From: Nitrospirota bacterium
Lineage (GTDB): Bacteria > Nitrospirota > Nitrospiria > Nitrospirales > Nitrospiraceae
Reading direction: 5' to 3'
Length of the DNA stretch: 64,000 bases
Assembly (NCBI GenBank): GCA_040757595.1
Contig: JBFLWP010000003.1
Location: 1 to 64,000 of the forward strand
Numbering within the stretch: the stretch's first letter is position 1; each line of letters opens with the position of its first letter. The notes beneath the pieces are model-generated. The model worked only from the letters and a program-made list of their open reading frames with translations. It was not told where the DNA came from and made no database searches. Position numbers and translations under genes: made by a program. This document shows positions 181 through 64,000 of this stretch, piece after piece.

Positions 181-597
181 TTAGACAACCTCTTTGGGCA
201 ACATCCGATGAAGCCGGAGGCCGCGCACCTTGGCAATCGCGTCGAAGTCCCGATCGTTGTGGAACAGCTCCGCCCCGGCCTCCAGACAGACGGCCGCAAT
301 CAGACAGTCCACGGTGCTGCGGATCGTCAATCCCTTCTTGCGGCAGGCCCGGTAGATCGCCGAAGCTTCCTCGAACGTCTCAAGGCCGCTGACGCAGAGG
401 ATGGGAAAAGCCCGCAAGAGCTCACGAGTCCTTCGAAAGGTTGCGTCCGGCCCGATCCCCTGCAGCACTTCACAGTAGATCATGTCCGTGAGCCCAACAG
501 GCGCGCCCTCCTCAATGAGGCGCGTGAGATGGAGGTCCTGCGGCGTCGCCCTGGCCTCCAGGAAATCAATCCAGACTGTGGTGTCCGCGACGATCAT
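181..597 (-). CDS. vapC: PIN-domain ribonuclease toxin (VapC family)
   Basis: This 138-residue protein has the PIN fold signature. It starts MIVADTTVWIDF with the first metal-binding aspartate at residue 5, has a mid-protein glutamate in IYCEVLQG, then STVDCLIAA, and a late acidic cluster in HNDRDFDAIA. PIN toxins are Mg-dependent RNases that cut tRNA or rRNA when free of antitoxin. Its start overlaps the stop of the upstream small gene (594-794) by four bases (ATGA), the usual coupling of antitoxin and toxin. Length is normal for the family and all expected acidic residues seem present, so the toxin is probably intact. Confidence 0.88.
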   Translation of the reverse strand: MIVADTTVWIDFLEARATPQDLHLTRLIEEGAPVGLTDMIYCEVLQGIGPDATFRRTRELLRAFPILCVSGLETFEEASAIYRACRKKGLTIRSTVDCLIAAVCLEAGAELFHNDRDFDAIAKVRGLRLHRMLPKEVV

Positions 598-42286: not shown

Positions 42287-42529
42287 ATGGCGACGCTCAC
42301 CATCAAAAACATTTCCGATCGAGTGGTTAAACGTCTGAAGGCTCGTGCAGTGCAACATCATCGGAGCTTGAATTATGAGGTGATCGCCTGTCTGGAGGCG
42401 GCGGCTCAGGCGACGCCAATCGATCCTGACGCATTTCTAGCCCGCGTCCGGTCGATCCGACGGACACCGGCGAACTTCAAGTTGACCGACAAGACCCTGG
42501 CCCAACTCAAGACTGCGGGTCGCCCATGA
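42287..42529 (+). CDS. vapB: FitA/VapB-type ribbon-helix-helix antitoxin
   Basis: An 80-residue antitoxin. TLTIKNISDRVVKRLKARA and VQHHRSLNYEVIACLEAA are the strand and helices of FitA-type RHH proteins. ATG 42287 is chosen for GGAGG six bases upstream. Its stop overlaps the toxin start by four bases. It differs in type from the VapB at 594-794, so the two pairs are unlikely to cross-talk. Confidence 0.85.
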   Translation: MATLTIKNISDRVVKRLKARAVQHHRSLNYEVIACLEAAAQATPIDPDAFLARVRSIRRTPANFKLTDKTLAQLKTAGRP

Positions 42530-42927
42530 TCGTGGCCGACACCAACTTGTTGGTATACCTCTACGTCGAGGGACAACGAACCAGCCAGGCGGAGATCGCA
42601 TTGGCGAAAGACCCCCTGTGGGTGGCACCGCTCTTGTGGCGATCCGAGTTTCGAAATACGGTCACGGGGCTGGTGCGAAAGAAGGCCCTGGCTTTGGAAG
42701 ATGCGTTACGGATCGTGGATGACGCGGAGCGGGCCATGGCCGGGCGTGAGTACAGCGTTCTGTCCCACGACGTGCTCCAGCTTGCCGCCCGGTCCGGTTG
42801 CTCGGCCTATGATTGCGAATTCGTCGCGCTGGCTCAGGACTTGGGCATCCCGTTCGTGACGTCCGATCGGCAAGTGCTGGCGGCGTTTCCCACCACGACA
42901 GTATCCCTCGACCGGTTCACTGTCTAA
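42526..42927 (+). CDS. vapC: PIN-domain ribonuclease toxin (VapC family), second copy
   Basis: A 133-residue PIN toxin. MIVADTNLLVYLYVEG has the first aspartate at residue 5, PLLWRSEFRNTV the glutamate, and YDCEFVALAQ and VTSDRQVLAAFP the remaining acidic residues. It is only distantly like the first VapC (181-597). It is coupled to the FitA-like antitoxin and flanked on both sides by copies of a composite repeat. Confidence 0.88.
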   Translation: MIVADTNLLVYLYVEGQRTSQAEIALAKDPLWVAPLLWRSEFRNTVTGLVRKKALALEDALRIVDDAERAMAGREYSVLSHDVLQLAARSGCSAYDCEFVALAQDLGIPFVTSDRQVLAAFPTTTVSLDRFTV

Positions 42928-55986: not shown

Positions 55987-57252
55987 TCATTGGGGCACGA
56001 CCGGCTCCGGAGGCAGGAGCCCCTGCTCCCGCACGTGGTGCCGGATCGCCGGCAAGGCTCGCCAGAAGAGGCCCGCTCCGATCAAGATGGTCAGCCCGCC
56101 CGCCGCGACGGTGAGCGGAGCGCCCAGGTAGCTCCCGCCGAGTCCCGCCAGCAGGCTCCCGAAGACCGTGAAACCCAGGGAGCCGATGGTATAGAGGCTC
56201 ACGACACGCCCCCGCAGGGCCTCCGGCGCCAGCGACTGGAGCAGGGTGTTGACGCCGGCGAGGCTGCTCACCATGCCGAACCCGATCAACAGGAGTGCGA
56301 CGATCGAGAGCCACAGGTCGGTGCTGGCCGCCAGAGCGAGCAGGCCGAGCCCGAAGAGCCCGGTCGCCGCGGCGATGGCGGCGCCCAGCCCGTGGACCGT
56401 CCTGCGCCGGGCCAGGCGCAGGGCCGCGCCGAGCGCGCCGATCCCCGTCGCCGCCATGAGCAGGCCCAGCCCGTCCGGCCCGCGATGCAGCACATCGCGC
56501 GCGAAGACCGGCAGGAGCGTGGCATAGGGCATGCCCGCGACGCTGATGACCAGAACCAACGCGAGGGCGGCCCGAACGTGGGGCGTCCCCTTGGCGTAGT
56601 GCAATCCCTCCCGAAGCTGCGCCCAGACGTCGGCCTGATGGGTCTGGGGGGCTGGCTGGACCCGGATGGCGGCCAGGCACCCCAGCACGATGAGGAAGCT
56701 CAGGGAATTGATGAGGAAGCAGGAGCCCTCTCCCATGCTGCTGGCCACCAGCCCGGCCAGCGACGGGCCGACGATTCGGGCCGTGTTGAAGACCGAGGAG
56801 TTGAGCCCGATCGCCGAGGCGATGTCTGGGCGCGGCACCAGGTCGGTCAGGAAGGCCTGACGCACCGGCACCTCGACGGAGCCGATGAGGCCCATGAACA
56901 GGGCCAGGGCCAGGATCCATTCCACCGTCACGAGGCCGCTGAGCGTGAGGGCCGCGAGCAGCCCGGCCTGGACCAGCAGGAGCCCCTGGACCACGAACAT
57001 GATCCGGTGGCGGGGCCAGCGGTCCGCGAGCAATCCGCCGACCAGCCCGAAGGCGAGGATCGGGGCGCGGGAGAGGAACTCCGCCAGTCCCAGGAGGAAC
57101 GGGGAGCCGGTCAACCGGTAAAGCAGCCAGGCCTGCGCCATGCTCTGCATCCAGGTGCCGCAGAGCGAGAGCCCGTGGCCGGTCAGGAAGAGGGAGAAGT
57201 TGCGGTGGGTCAGGGCGCGCCAGGGCGAGCCGTGCAGGGACGACGCGCTCAC
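55987..57252 (-). CDS. MFS exporter, enterobactin-exporter-like (MFS_3/EntS type)
   Basis: A 421-residue 12-span transporter. [20 protein letters not shown] begins like EntS-type MFS proteins, then [20 protein letters not shown] is the A-motif loop, [20 protein letters not shown] and [20 protein letters not shown] the conserved span-4/5 segments. The substrate is unknown; a siderophore or drug is typical for the group, not shown here. It is divergent from malic enzyme. Confidence 0.88.
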
Positions 57253-57429: not shown

Positions 57430-59145
57430 ATGATCGACTTCACCATCAAGCGGGACAGCGGAACCGGCGAGGAAACCTGGGAGGTGCCGCTGTCCGGCCA
57501 CTGGCTCCTCGACCAACCCCTGTTCAACAAGGGCACGGCGTTCACGGAGCAGGAGCGGCGCGACCTGGGCCTGCTGGGGCTCCTGCCGCCCCACGTGGAC
57601 ACGGTCGAAGAGCAGCTCGCGCGCGCCTACGACGCCTACCGCCGCAAGGATTCCGACCTGGAGCGGCACATTTTCCTGCGCGCCCTGCAGGACGAGAACG
57701 AGACGCTCTTCTACCGGCTGACGCTGGAGCACATCGAGGAGATGATGCCGATCATCTACACGCCGGTTGTCGGGGAGGCCTGCCAGCACTTCAGCCGCAT
57801 CTACCGACACCCGCGGGGGCTCTTCATCGCCTATCCCGAGCGCGACGCCATGGATCAGATCCTGGCCAACGTGATCGCCCGGCGGGTGGAGGTGATCGTC
57901 GTCACCGACGGCGAGCGCATCCTGGGGCTCGGCGACCAGGGGGCGGGAGGCATGGGCATCCCGATCGGCAAGTTGTCGCTGTACACGCTCTGCGGGGGCA
58001 TCCACCCGGCCACGACGCTCCCCATCCTCCTGGACGTCGGGACCAACAATCAGGAAGCGCTGCGCGCGCCCCTGTACCTCGGCTGGCGCCACGAGCGGGT
58101 GCGCGGGAACGAGTACGACGAGTTCATCGAGCTGTTCGTTCGGGGAGTGGTCCGGCGGTTTCCGAACGTGCTGCTCCAGTGGGAGGACTTCGCCCAGGCC
58201 AACGCGGGCCGGCTGCTCGACCGGTACCGGGACCGGCTCTGCACCTTCAACGACGACATCCAGGGGACGGCCTCGGTGACGACCGGCACGATGCTCGCGG
58301 CCGTCAAGGTGACCAGCTCGAAGCTCCGGGACCAGCGGGTGGTCACGGTCGGGGCGGGCTCGGCCGGCTGCGGCATCAGCGAGCAGCTCTGCGCGGCGAT
58401 GGTCCGCGAAGGGCTGTCAGAGCGGGAAGCCCGCTCCCGCTTCTGGCTGATCGACCGGCAGGGCCTGCTCCGCGAGGGCTTGACCCTGCTCCCCTTCCAG
58501 GAGAAATTCGTGCAGCCGCGGGCGGCCCTGGCCGGCTGGAAGCTGGCTCGGCCGGACCGGGTCGAACTGGCGGACGTGGTCGCGAACGTGCGCCCCACGA
58601 TCCTGATCGGGGCCTCCGGCGTGCCCGGCGTCTTCACGGAGCCGGTCGTCCGCGAGATGGCCCGCCACGTCGGCCGGCCGATCATCTTTCCCCTCTCCAA
58701 CCCGACCGAGCGGGCCGAGGCGAAGCCGGCGGATCTCCTGGCATGGACGGATGGAAACGCGCTCGTCGCGACGGGCAGCCCGTTCGAGCCGGTCTCGTTC
58801 CGCGGCAGGACCGTCCCGATCGCCCAGTGCAACAACAGCTACATCTTTCCCGGGTTGGGGCTCGGCGTCCTGGCCGTCGGGGCGAAGCGGGTCACGGACG
58901 GGATGTTCATGGCCGCCTCGCTGGCGCTCGCCGAGTGCGCCCCGGCGCTGCAGAGCCGGGAGGCGCCGCTGCTGCCTCCGCTGACCGAGATTCGCTCCGT
59001 GTCCCGGCGGATCGCCCTGGCGGTGGCCGCCGAGGCGCAACGGGCCGGCCTCGCCGCGCCCACCTCCCGGGACGAGCTGGAACGGCTCGTGGAGGGGAAG
59101 ATGTGGGCGCCCCGCTACCCCCGCTTCACGCGGAAGGCCGGCTGA
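57430..59145 (+). CDS. maeA: NAD(P)-dependent malic enzyme (malate dehydrogenase, oxaloacetate-decarboxylating)
   Basis: A 571-residue malic enzyme of the long SfcA/MaeA and eukaryotic type that turns malate into pyruvate and CO2. Key segments: [60 protein letters not shown] with the metal-binding Asp pair, and a Rossmann site [20 protein letters not shown]. The C-terminal FSN..ERAEA-type [20 protein letters not shown] is complete. ATG 57430 has almost no leader. It is 58 bases upstream of the NDH-2 gene. Confidence 0.93.
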
Positions 59146-59203: not shown

Positions 59204-60478
59204 ATGCCCGTTCAGGATCGGCCGCACGTGGTGGTTGTCGGGGCGGGCTTCGGGGGCCTCTACGCCGTCCGGGCTCTCAGGCACGCGGAGGTCCGGATCA
59301 CGGTCGTTGACCGGCACAACTACCATCTGTTCCAGCCGTTGCTCTACCAGGTCGCGACGGCCGGTCTGTCTCCGGGAGACATCGCCCATCCCATCCGCAG
59401 CGTGCTGCGCCGCCAGAAGAACGCCTGCGTGCTGCTGGCGGAGGCGGTCAAGATCGACGTCCACGCCCGCACGGTTTCGTTGGCCGACGGCGAAGTCGGT
59501 TACGATTACCTGATCCTGGCGGCGGGTGTGCGGCACTCGTACTTCGGGCACCGGGAGTGGGAGGCCCTGGCTCCCGGTCTCAAGAGCGTCGAGGACGCGC
59601 TGGAGATCAGGCGCCGCATCCTGCTCGCCTTCGAGAAAGCCGAGCGGGAACCGGACGAGGCCAAGCGCCAGGCGCTGTTGACGTTCGTGATCGTGGGGGC
59701 CGGGCCGACCGGGGTCGAGCTGGCCGGCGCCATCGCCGAGATCGCCCACCAGGTGATGGTGCAGGATTTCCGCGCCATCGATCCGCGGGAGGCGCGCATC
59801 GTGCTGATCGAAGCGGGCCCGCGCGTGCTGCCCTCCTTTCCGGAGGAGCTTTCGCGTGAGGCCGAGGCCGCCTTGGCACGACTGCACGTGGACGTGAAGA
59901 AGCGGACTCCGGTCACCGAGATCAGGCCGGACCGGGTCCTGTGCGGGACCCAGGCTGTCCCCGCCGCCACGGTCTTGTGGGCGGCCGGCGTCACGGCCTC
60001 GCCCCTGGCGGCCTCGCTCGATGTTCCGCTCGATCGCGCCGGCCGCGTGCTGGTGGAGCCGGACTTGAGCATCCCTGGCCATCCGGAGGTCTTCGTGATC
60101 GGCGACTTGGCCGCATTCACGCACCAGATCGGAGAGCCGCTGCCCGGCCTGGCTCCCGTCGCGATCCAACAGGGCCGGCATGCGGCCAACACCATCCTAC
60201 GCCTGTGCCAAGGGCTGCCGAGCGAGCCGTTCCGCTACAGGGACCGGGGGACCCTGGCCACGATCGGGCGGGCATCGGCTGTGGCCGATTTCGGCAGGAT
60301 CAGACTGTCGGGCTTCTTCGCCTGGATCGTCTGGACTTTCGTCCACATCTTCTTTCTGATCGGCTTTCGGAACCGGGTCGCGGTGCTCCTCGAGTGGGCC
60401 TGGGCCTACCTGGCCCTCCAACGCTCGGCCCGCCTGATCACCGGGGAAAGCGGGAACCGGGGAACGATCTCCCCATGA
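59204..60478 (+). CDS. ndh: Type II NADH dehydrogenase (NDH-2)
   Basis: A 424-residue non-proton-pumping NADH:quinone oxidoreductase. The FAD site is VVVVGAGFGGLYAVRAL and the NADH site FVIVGAGPTGVELAGAIAEI; the quinone-side LAPVAIQQGRHAANTIL is also conserved. The C-terminal FFAWIVWTFVHIFFLIGFRN is the membrane-anchoring helix. It would pass NADH electrons to quinone without pumping, allowing fast NAD+ regeneration. It precedes the acetolactate synthase gene by 13 bases, apparently in one operon. Confidence 0.92.
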   Translation: MPVQDRPHVVVVGAGFGGLYAVRALRHAEVRITVVDRHNYHLFQPLLYQVATAGLSPGDIAHPIRSVLRRQKNACVLLAEAVKIDVHARTVSLADGEVGYDYLILAAGVRHSYFGHREWEALAPGLKSVEDALEIRRRILLAFEKAEREPDEAKRQALLTFVIVGAGPTGVELAGAIAEIAHQVMVQDFRAIDPREARIVLIEAGPRVLPSFPEELSREAEAALARLHVDVKKRTPVTEIRPDRVLCGTQAVPAATVLWAAGVTASPLAASLDVPLDRAGRVLVEPDLSIPGHPEVFVIGDLAAFTHQIGEPLPGLAPVAIQQGRHAANTILRLCQGLPSEPFRYRDRGTLATIGRASAVADFGRIRLSGFFAWIVWTFVHIFFLIGFRNRVAVLLEWAWAYLALQRSARLITGESGNRGTISP

Positions 60479-60491
60479 AGAAGGAGGTTCC

Positions 60492-62156
60492 ATGCCTGAG
60501 GCCAAGCTGCCGACAACCGGAGCGGAATTGCTCGTACGATCCCTGGAGGCCCAGGGGGTGGAATATATCTTCGGCGTGCCGGGCGGCGCGGTCCTGCCGA
60601 TCGTGGACGTGCTGGCTCGGCACGGCCCCAAGTTCGTGCTCTGCCGGGACGAGACCGGCGCTTCGTTCATGGCCCAGGCCTGGGGCCGGATCACCGGCAA
60701 GCCGGGCGTCGTCCTGACCACCTCCGGTCCGGGGCTCATCAACGCGGTCTGCGGCGTGGCGACGGCCACTGAGGACCGGGACCCGCTGGTCGTCATCACC
60801 GGCCAGGTCCCGCGCGCCGCTCGGTGCAAGCAGAGCCACATGAACCTGGATTCGGTCAGCCTCTTCGCGCCGATCACCAAGTGGAGCGTCGAGGCGGAGG
60901 AGCCGAACAGCCTGCCGGAGATCCTCGTCAACGCCTTCCGCATCGCCGCCCGTCCGAGGCCGGGAGCCGTGCACGTGTCGGTGCCGGTGGACGTGGCCAA
61001 GGCGGCCGTCTCCGCCGCGGCGATCCCGGCCCCCGAGCCGGTGCAGCAAGGAGCCGCGCCGGCCGACATCTTGAGCCGGGCCGCCGCCCTGCTGAACGGA
61101 GCGAAGGCCCCGGTCGTCCTGCTGGGGGTGAGTGCGAGCCTGCCCGCCGCTTCGGCCGCCGCCCGCCGCTTCGTCCGGCAGCATCCGCTGCCGGTTGCCA
61201 TGACCTTCGAGGCGGCCGGGGCCCTCTCGCGTGATTTGCTCGACCGGTTCGTGGGCCGGGTCGGCTATGTCCGCAACCAGCCTGGTGACCTCGTGCTCCA
61301 GCAGGCCGACCTGGTCCTCGCGATCGGCTACGATACGGTCGAGTATGACCCAGCCGCCTGGAACACCTCGCCCAAGCTTTCAATCGTCCACTTGGATGAG
61401 CTGCCGGCGACCGTGGACCGGGCCTACCGGCCTTCCGTCGAGGTCGTCGGCGACATCGCCCGGAACCTGGACGCCCTCTCCCCGCTCGTTCGCCTGACCG
61501 CGCCAGCCGAGCGGCCCGAGGTGGTCCAGGCGAGGAAAGCCCTGCGCGACGACGAGCATCGGGGCGCGACCCTGGCCGGCTCGCCGGTGCACCCGCTGCG
61601 CTTCATCCACGACCTCCGGCAGACCATCGGGGACGACGTGACCGTCACCTGTGACGTGGGGGCGCACGAGATCTGGATGGCCCGGCATTTCTTCTGCTTC
61701 GAGCCGCGGCACCTGCTGTTCAGCATGGGCCACCAGACGATGGGCGTGGCCCTGCCCTGGGCTATCGCCGCGGCCCTGGCCAGGCCGGGCCGCAAGGCCG
61801 TCTCGGTCTCGGGCGACGGGTCGTTCCTGATGACCTGCATGGAGCTGGAGACGGCGGTCCGGCTCAGGCTCCCGACCGTGCACGTCGTCTGGAAGGACGG
61901 GAGCTACAACCTCATCAAGTCCCTCCAGACGCGGGACTACGGCCGATGTTTCGGGGCGGAGTTCGGCAACCCGGATTTCGTCAAGCTCGGGGAGGCCTTT
62001 GGGGCTGCGGCCTTCCGGATCGCGGAGGCGGAGGAGATCGTGCCCACCTTGAAGAAGGCCCTGGCCGCCGAGGGGCCGGCGCTGATCGAGGTGGCGATTG
62101 ACTATCGGGACAACCAGGAGCTGGTCAAGGCGATCGAGGGCTCGGCCCAACATTGA
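60492..62156 (+). CDS. alsS: Acetolactate synthase, catabolic (AlsS-like) type
   Basis: A 554-residue thiamine-diphosphate enzyme that condenses two pyruvates. EYIFGVPGGAVLPIVDVL begins the Pyr domain; the catalytic glutamate is in LCRDETGASFMAQAWGR. QSHMNLDSVSLFAPITKWSV resembles AlsS rather than anabolic IlvB. The TPP site VSGDGSFLMTCMELETAVRL ends in GSYN, and GRCFGAEFGNPDFVKLGEAF matches the AlsS C-terminal segment. No small regulatory subunit (ilvN) lies nearby, fitting the catabolic type. The next gene is acetolactate decarboxylase, which strongly supports the acetoin route. Confidence 0.9.
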   Translation: MPEAKLPTTGAELLVRSLEAQGVEYIFGVPGGAVLPIVDVLARHGPKFVLCRDETGASFMAQAWGRITGKPGVVLTTSGPGLINAVCGVATATEDRDPLVVITGQVPRAARCKQSHMNLDSVSLFAPITKWSVEAEEPNSLPEILVNAFRIAARPRPGAVHVSVPVDVAKAAVSAAAIPAPEPVQQGAAPADILSRAAALLNGAKAPVVLLGVSASLPAASAAARRFVRQHPLPVAMTFEAAGALSRDLLDRFVGRVGYVRNQPGDLVLQQADLVLAIGYDTVEYDPAAWNTSPKLSIVHLDELPATVDRAYRPSVEVVGDIARNLDALSPLVRLTAPAERPEVVQARKALRDDEHRGATLAGSPVHPLRFIHDLRQTIGDDVTVTCDVGAHEIWMARHFFCFEPRHLLFSMGHQTMGVALPWAIAAALARPGRKAVSVSGDGSFLMTCMELETAVRLRLPTVHVVWKDGSYNLIKSLQTRDYGRCFGAEFGNPDFVKLGEAFGAAAFRIAEAEEIVPTLKKALAAEGPALIEVAIDYRDNQELVKAIEGSAQH

Positions 62157-62160
62157 GCGT

Positions 62161-63120
62161 ATGATGAGCGGTCCGTTCGAGCAGAAGCTGACACGCCGTG
62201 GTTTGCTGAAAGGACTGGGAGTGGGCCTTGCGGCTCTGGTCGTTGCCGGCCCCTGCGGTTTGCTCGAACGGGCGGCCAAGGCGCAAGGCACCGGCCCGGC
62301 CCGGACGATGCGGAACGAGGAGGACCGAGGAATGGCGATTGACGATGTCTTCATCAGGGCCTTCCAGGCCCACCGGCAGAAGGGGGATCTGTTCCACCAC
62401 GATTCGCACAAGGCCCACGAGCTGTTCCAGGCCTCGACGATCGGCGCCTTGATGGAGGGCGTCTACGACGGAGAGACGACCTACGCGGAGCTGGCCAAGC
62501 ACGGGGATTTCGGGCTCGGCACCTTCAACGCCCTGGACGGAGAGATGATCGCGTTCGGCGGCCGGTTCTACCAGATCAAGTCCGACGGGAAGGCCTATCC
62601 GGTGGAGCCCTCACAGAAAACGCCCTTCGCGGTCGTCATGCGCTTCGACCCGACCGTGAAGGTCATCTACGAGGAGCTGGTGGACTGGACGCACTTCCAG
62701 CAGGCGGTGGACAAGGCGGTGCCGAGCAAGAACGTCTTCTACGCCCTTCTGGCCACGGGTGCGTTCGATTACGTCAAGGTCCGGGCCGTGCCCCGGCAGA
62801 CGAAACCCTATCCACCGCTGGCCGAGGTGGCCAAGCGGCAACCGGTCTACGTCCACGAGGGACTCAAGGGCACGTTGGTGGGCTACCGGTTTCCCGACTA
62901 TACCCAGGGCATCAACGTGCCGGGCTATCACGTGCACTTCCTGTCCGAAGACCGGACCAGGGGCGGCCACGTGCTGGACTTCCGCCTGAAAGACGCGACG
63001 GTGGAGATTGACGTGACCTCGGACCTGCACATGGAAGTGCCGGCCTCCGGGGCGTTCCTCGACACGGATCTGAGCAAGGACCAGCGCGAGGCGATCGAGA
63101 AGGCCGAACGGGACCGGTGA
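62161..63120 (+). CDS. alsD: Alpha-acetolactate decarboxylase with an N-terminal export signal
   Basis: A 319-residue enzyme that turns acetolactate into acetoin. ASTIGALMEGVYDGETTYAE and LAKHGDFGLGTFNALDGEM are family hallmarks; the zinc ligands appear in GYHVHFLSEDRTRGGHVLDF (His, His, His). The family is usually about 240-260 residues, so about 65 residues are extra at the N-terminus: KLTRRGLLKGLGVGLAALVV has a twin-arginine (RRGLLK) and hydrophobic stretch, an export signal of Tat type. ATG 62161 follows the alsS stop by four bases. An alternative start downstream would drop the signal, but the motif looks genuine. Confidence 0.88.
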   Translation: MMSGPFEQKLTRRGLLKGLGVGLAALVVAGPCGLLERAAKAQGTGPARTMRNEEDRGMAIDDVFIRAFQAHRQKGDLFHHDSHKAHELFQASTIGALMEGVYDGETTYAELAKHGDFGLGTFNALDGEMIAFGGRFYQIKSDGKAYPVEPSQKTPFAVVMRFDPTVKVIYEELVDWTHFQQAVDKAVPSKNVFYALLATGAFDYVKVRAVPRQTKPYPPLAEVAKRQPVYVHEGLKGTLVGYRFPDYTQGINVPGYHVHFLSEDRTRGGHVLDFRLKDATVEIDVTSDLHMEVPASGAFLDTDLSKDQREAIEKAERDR

Positions 63121-63168: not shown

Positions 63169-64000
63169 ATGGCTACGAACGACAAGCAGATCATCTTTTC
63201 GCTCATCGGCGTCGGCAAGGTCTATCCGCCGAAGAAGCAGGTGCTCAAGGACATCTACCTCTCGTTCTATTACGGGGCCAAGATCGGCGTGCTCGGGCTC
63301 AACGGGTCCGGCAAGAGCACGCTGCTCCGGATCATCGCCGGGGCGGAGCAGGATTACCTGGGCGAGATCACGATGTCCAAGGGCTACACGGTCGGGCTGC
63401 TGGAACAGGAGCCGCAGCTCGACAAGGCCAAGACCGTCAAGGAAGTGGTCGAGGAGGGGCGGCGGGGCGTCGTCAACCTCCTCCGGGAGTACGAAGCGAT
63501 CAGCAACAAGTTGGGCGACTGCTCGCCGGACGAGATGGAAAAATTGCTGGAGAAGCAGAGCGGGCTCCAGGAGAAGATCGAGGCGGTCAACGGCTGGGAG
63601 TTGGAGAACCAGCTCGAGGTGGCGATGGACGCGCTCCGCTGCCCGCCGCCGGACGCGAAGGTGGGGGTCCTCTCCGGCGGGGAGCGGCGGCGGGTCGCCC
63701 TCTGCCGCCTCTTGATCCAGGAGCCGGACATCCTCCTGCTGGACGAGCCGACCAACCACCTGGACGCCGAGTCGGTCCAATGGCTGGAGCAGCACCTCCA
63801 GCAGTACGAGGGCACGGTCATCGCCGTGACCCACGACCGCTACTTCCTCGACAACGTGGCTCGCTGGATCCTGGAGCTGGACCGGGGGCAGGGGATTCCC
63901 TTCGAGGGCAACTATTCCTCCTGGCTGGAGCAGAAGCAGGCGCGGCTGGAGAGGGAGGAGAAGGCCGAATCCAAGCGGCGGAAGACGCTGGAGCGGGAAT
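63169..64000 (+). CDS. ettA: ABC-F ATPase, EttA-like, truncated by the window end
   Basis: 277 codons of an ABC-F translation factor. The first domain has Walker [20 protein letters not shown], signature [20 protein letters not shown] and Walker [18 protein letters not shown], then [39 protein letters not shown] is the EttA-type start, and the stretch [20 protein letters not shown] leads to the inter-domain linker. EttA gates the ribosome according to energy state. GAGGAG precedes ATG 63169. The second ATPase domain lies beyond the window. Confidence 0.9.

Follow-up and report, generated by a model that had tools for sequence, protein, structure and literature searches.

Introduction

In the alsSD and budAB operons of Bacillus and Klebsiella, a catabolic acetolactate synthase (AlsS) and an acetolactate decarboxylase (ALDC) take pyruvate to acetoin, and a Methylococcus cluster in which a malic enzyme gene precedes the same pair has previously been described as possibly fermenting malate to acetoin (PMC8527097). 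In an acidophilic ammonia oxidiser, ALDC has been proposed to consume protons (PMC4836417). Our literature search returned no report of acetoin in Nitrospira or of a malate-to-acetoin route in nitrite oxidisers.

The locus considered here lies in a stretch of 64,000 nucleotides (the window) at the start of contig JBFLWP010000003.1 of a Nitrospirota assembly (GCA_040757595.1). A preliminary description of the window had suspected this lineage from the letters alone, and rightly so: the nearest relatives of the AlsD protein are encoded in MAGs named Nitrospira sp., placing the host in the Nitrospiraceae. Like the alsSD and budAB operons, the locus joins a catabolic AlsS to an ALDC for the conversion of pyruvate to acetoin, but it differs from them in its linked malic enzyme gene, in a twin-arginine (Tat)-type leader in the frame of AlsD, and in that no 2,3-butanediol dehydrogenase scoring above the family cut-off was found in the genome. 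With the Methylococcus cluster it shares all three genes, their order and their strand, the proteins being 69-74% identical, whereas that cluster has neither an NDH-2 gene nor an AlsD leader and leaves a gap of 13-20 nt between alsS and alsD. The features of the locus are as follows.

55990..57252, minus strand: divergent MFS transporter gene (PF05977), an upstream neighbour kept in three Nitrospiraceae relatives
57430..59145, plus strand: malic enzyme (malate to pyruvate and CO2), first gene of the module; NF010052, 829.9 bits; start MIDFTIKR
59204..60478, plus strand: NDH-2, a type II NADH dehydrogenase-like flavoprotein (PF07992, PF22366 NDH2_C), between malic enzyme and alsS
60492..62156, plus strand: alsS, catabolic acetolactate synthase, 554 aa; above cut-off for the AlsS models NF006378 and TIGR02418
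62161..62331, plus strand: Tat-type leader by its anatomy, 57 codons in frame with alsD, absent in all relatives
62317..62323, plus strand: Shine-Dalgarno (SD) sequence GAGGAGG, 8 nt 5' of the native alsD start; -10.1 kcal/mol against the anti-SD
62332..63120, plus strand: alsD proper, acetolactate decarboxylase, 262 aa from Met58 (MAIDDVFI...), a start common to 7/7 close relatives
63169..64000, plus strand: ettA-like ABC-F ATPase gene (TIGR03719), running past the window end; a downstream neighbour kept by synteny in the Nitrospiraceae, and outside the acetoin pathway

Results

A probable malate-to-acetoin module in the Nitrospiraceae

The adjacency of alsS and alsD, already pointed out in the preliminary description, is close: alsS ends at 62156 and the alsD frame opens at 62161. 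AlsS scores 721 bits against NF006378 (cut-off 510) and 646 bits against TIGR02418, and copies that are 75-76% identical to it occur in four other genomes (G018, G019, G030 and G198). We assign it to the catabolic type on the grounds that it exceeds the cut-off of the AlsS equivalog model and that the genome has a separate biosynthetic AHAS, the IlvN-type small subunit for amino-acid synthesis being encoded elsewhere, apart from alsS. The protein has no signal peptide, as had been claimed for it, and its first domain (TPP_enzyme_N) begins at residue 9. The longest ATG-started alsD frame (62161-63120) encodes 319 aa and covers the PF03306 and TIGR01252 profiles end to end, with 290.5 and 287.5 bits (TIGR01252 cut-off 180.65); solved ALDC structures align to residues 83-319. 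The HxH...H metal site and the catalytic Glu and Arg, as known for the Brevibacillus brevis enzyme, are conserved: H257, H259, H270, E128 and R208 are invariant across 33 sequences.

Four Nitrospiraceae relatives have malic enzyme - alsS - (cydB-cydA, on the opposite strand) - alsD - ettA, with the divergent MFS gene in three of them, and Methylococcus has malic enzyme - alsS - alsD, so that the order of the three genes is kept in two phyla. The neighbouring malic enzymes of the Nitrospiraceae relatives and Methylococcus are 70-80% identical to that of the window, and in the synteny comparison no relative had NDH-2 between malic enzyme and alsS. The bd oxidase genes cydB-cydA, which stand between alsS and alsD in L152, L153, L154 and L155, lie at an unrelated site in the genome of the window (G000 C4:172420-174850, equivalent to L178:6421-8850). 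In two Ruegeria loci (L054 and L070), a malic enzyme gene (59% identical) is found about 930 bp downstream of the start of a leaderless alsD, with no alsS nearby, which adds another link between malic enzyme and ALDC.

The acetoin route is present in 6/175 Nitrospiraceae genomes. It had been described as an unexpected overflow route in this lineage; that it is uncommon stands, but 'overflow' is too vague a term for a specific module, leading from malate through pyruvate and acetolactate to acetoin, that is common to the Methylococcaceae. Acetoin is the likely end product, since the genome provides an IlvN-type subunit for making amino acids and yielded no butanediol dehydrogenase above cut-off. 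The cluster points to a malate-to-acetoin route in the Nitrospiraceae, one in common with aerobic methanotrophs, and the module may serve in acid or overflow control.

A Tat-type leader in frame with alsD

The alsD frame begins MMSGPFEQKLTRRGLLKGLGVGLAALVVAGPCGLLERAAKAQGTGPARTMRNEEDRG. Its N-terminus has a basic n-region with RR at residues 12-13 (62194-62199) and the motif TRRGLLKG, a hydrophobic run of 18 uncharged residues (62212-62265; best 13-residue mean hydrophobicity 2.24) and a predicted cleavage site between AKA and Q, after 62283. The twin-arginine-like motif and hydrophobic stretch reported in the preliminary description are therefore present, and the cleavage site, which it did not mention, can be added to them. 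The N-terminal extension it put at about 65 residues is also real, but its length has to be corrected to 57 residues before Met58 or 86 before the ALDC domain, which starts at about residue 87-88 of the 319-aa protein (PF03306 from 88). With two tatC genes in the host genome, an RR motif, a hydrophobic region, an AxA site and a translocase are all in place.

In simulated sequence, a loose Tat pattern with AxA arose at 8/34,046 starts and a strict pattern at 0/257,519; within the window, the strict pattern occurs only at the alsD leader, at its two start codons. The simulation rules out a chance open frame, and on this basis we take the leader for a genuine Tat-type signal. The frame is open through all 57 codons, with no visible decay, and is the best scoring of the six.

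That the junction of leader and alsD is an assembly or sequence artefact is very improbable. It is seen in one genome only, of 3.37 Mb and assembled in 36 contigs, but the window's contig (C3) is 288 kb long, the genome is estimated to be 100% complete and 0.89% contaminated, the sequence on either side agrees with the syntenic module of the relatives and the leader segment is single-copy in the genome; moreover, a complete Tat signal falling in frame 4 nt after a stop codon would be improbable by chance.

The start used by close relatives

Close relatives of AlsD, drawn from named genomes and from 175 Nitrospiraceae genomes, are 69-82% identical to it, and all seven (the Nitrospiraceae L005, L006, L007 and L153 and the Methylococcaceae L008, L009 and L010) are leaderless and start at MAIDD, which corresponds to Met58 (62332). 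Upstream of MAIDD they have an in-frame stop, non-coding or non-leader sequence, or the end of alsS. A comparison with homologues had been proposed in the preliminary description as a check on export, and its outcome is that the leader is absent from every close relative and that the homologues start downstream of it.

The SD energies also distinguish the two starts. At Met58 the value is -10.1 kcal/mol, as compared with -11.2 for alsS and -6.1 to -7.2 for alsD of the relatives, most of which have a weaker SD at the same position. At the leader ATGs (62161/62164) the values are -2.5 and -3.2, the background median being -3.8; the leader starts have no SD. SD energy is, in general, a weak predictor of relative initiation where genes are coupled, and reinitiation at the leader after alsS, whose stop codon is 4 nt away, is possible. 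In the predicted structure of AlsD, pLDDT stays below 50 over residues 10-58, a helix spans 60-73 and the ALDC fold begins near residue 85; this is consistent with a protein that starts at Met58. Most AlsD is probably made without the signal.

Two clades of ALDC

A tree of 79 ALDCs separates a clade of 37 from a clade of 42, and 77 other ALDCs were scored by one rule for leaders and for gene neighbours. Leaders are present in 36/37 members of the first clade and 0/40 of the second, whereas an AlsS relative adjoins alsD in 0/37 and 18/40, respectively, adjacency counts that are lower bounds as some flanks are shortened by contig ends. AlsD of the window falls in the second clade, in a set of eight otherwise leaderless rows (99% SH-aLRT) with Nitrospiraceae and Methylococcaceae, and is the only one of that clade to bear a leader. 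The 37 loci of the first clade (L013-L082) are phylogenetically mixed, with Sec or lipoprotein leaders and flanks without a relative of the window's AlsS.

The ALDC of B. brevis is reportedly secreted. The statement in the preliminary description that some Gram-negatives export ALDC agrees with our sample, with the reservation that these enzymes fall in a clade other than that of the window and have no adjoining alsS. Those of Syntrophobacteraceae, Desulfobacterales, Omnitrophota and Bacteroidota resemble the window's protein in having an export signal ahead of the ALDC domain, but none of the signals is convincingly Tat-type. They also differ in where the leader sits: it abuts the domain in the leader-bearing clade, but in the window an entire cytosolic N-terminus (MAIDD...) lies between leader and domain. 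The split between leader-bearing, alsS-free ALDCs and leaderless, alsS-linked ones is a simple rule that is open to testing by others.

These comparisons bear on the model of the preliminary description, in which AlsD is made only with its leader and exported by Tat, so that acetolactate would have to leave the cytosol and undergo decarboxylation in the periplasm. Parts of that picture hold, namely the Tat-type leader, the signal-free AlsS and the presence of tatC; in addition, ALDC as a folded metalloenzyme would suit Tat as a passenger, and a whole ALDC clade does carry Sec or lipoprotein leaders. The division of the pathway across the membrane fares less well, given that relatives start at Met58 and that AlsD belongs to a leaderless, alsS-linked clade, with a strong SD at the native start used by all relatives and none at the leader. 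Moreover, with alsS adjacent in 0/37 of the leader-bearing clade, the sample offers no earlier example of an exported AlsD encoded in an alsS-alsD operon, the leader sits before an intact cytosolic N-terminus, unlike in natural exported ALDCs, and no acetolactate exporter was identified; the literature search on Tat-exported ALDC found nothing relevant. An obligatory split-compartment pathway is unlikely, and we would assign the model as a whole a low probability.

Origin of the leader

AlsD falls in a leaderless clade, and its leader stands in front of an entire cytosolic N-terminus; most likely, therefore, a cytosolic enzyme acquired the leader within this lineage. No further leader-bearing AlsD relative was found among 236 genomes of the order. 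The codon log-odds of the leader are -0.12 per codon, as compared with 0.47 +/- 0.18 for genes and -0.67 +/- 0.51 for open non-coding frames, an intermediate score that fits either recent arrival or weak use.

Several sources were considered. A recent copy of another gene in the genome is ruled out, as the leader DNA has no match elsewhere. The closest leaders are those of Tat-exported aldo/keto reductases from many Nitrospiraceae genomes, at 42-49% identity over 36-42 residues, but their passenger is different and the likeness may reflect no more than the shared composition of Tat signals. One such reductase leader, 4.4 kb from the relocated cydAB, was rejected as the donor: it is 42% identical over 36 residues, with only weak DNA similarity. 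Decay of an ancestral leader in the relatives was likewise rejected, in that the bases upstream of their alsD align unconvincingly and, in L152, the one relative to be scored, look non-coding.

The leader might instead be a relic, a fragment of a Tat signal that rearrangement brought between alsS and alsD, in frame by accident and not usefully translated, with all AlsD cytosolic from Met58. The lack of an SD, a codon score that ranks at percentile 0.5 among gene segments, a GC3 of 0.74 where most other genes have 0.79-0.96 at their N-termini, and confinement to one genome would all agree with this, as would a junction that seems prone to rearrangement, occupied by bd oxidase genes in four relatives but not in the window's genome. 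Against it, the reading frame is intact, the signal is complete to its cleavage site and starts 4 nt after the alsS stop, and neither flanking repeats nor a remaining donor gene was found in the genome, where DNA similarity is weak only. We consider a relic somewhat unlikely.

Discussion

The reading we favour, to which we give about an even chance, is that the malate-to-acetoin route is mainly cytosolic and that a lineage-specific Tat leader yields, at most, a second, exported isoform. Beyond gene order, leader anatomy, the absence of the leader in relatives and SD strengths, which are direct observations, we infer a main product from Met58, a minor exported form and a physiological role. Malic enzyme would supply pyruvate, CO2 and NADH, with NADH reoxidised by NDH-2 without proton pumping; AlsS would condense two pyruvates to acetolactate, and AlsD would decarboxylate this to neutral acetoin. 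Because the Met58 start with its strong SD would give a cytosolic-type enzyme of 262 aa, the pathway would be finished inside the cell. Ribosomes finishing alsS might also reinitiate 4 nt on, at 62161/62164, and make a minor precursor for export by Tat. The cell could in this way shed surplus malate or pyruvate as a neutral compound while consuming protons.

The exported form could make up more than a small share, since the leader is too good for chance, its frame scores best and it starts 4 nt after the alsS stop, a spacing ideal for coupling. A decarboxylase with two locations would arise from two in-frame starts, the cytosolic ALDC being made from its own ribosome-binding site and the Tat-exported ALDC through reinitiation following a recent graft of the leader, a proposal that we put forward tentatively and regard as rather less than probable; our literature search on bacterial dual localisation by alternative starts found no direct precedent. 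If the leader works, we would be seeing a cytosolic metabolic enzyme that has recently gained an export signal and still keeps its ancestral start, a natural setting in which to test how a change of compartment begins.

Additional features of the window and genome

Elsewhere in the genome, two fragments (G000 C29:581-985 and C13:119004-119408) resemble the N-terminus of large type II DMSO-reductase-like (NxrA-like) proteins and are apparently broken at contig ends, which suggests a nitrite oxidiser with duplicated nxrA. The window itself encodes two short proteins starting MIVADT (181-597, minus strand, and 42526-42927, plus strand) that, judged by their sequence, look like PIN-domain (VapC-type) toxins.
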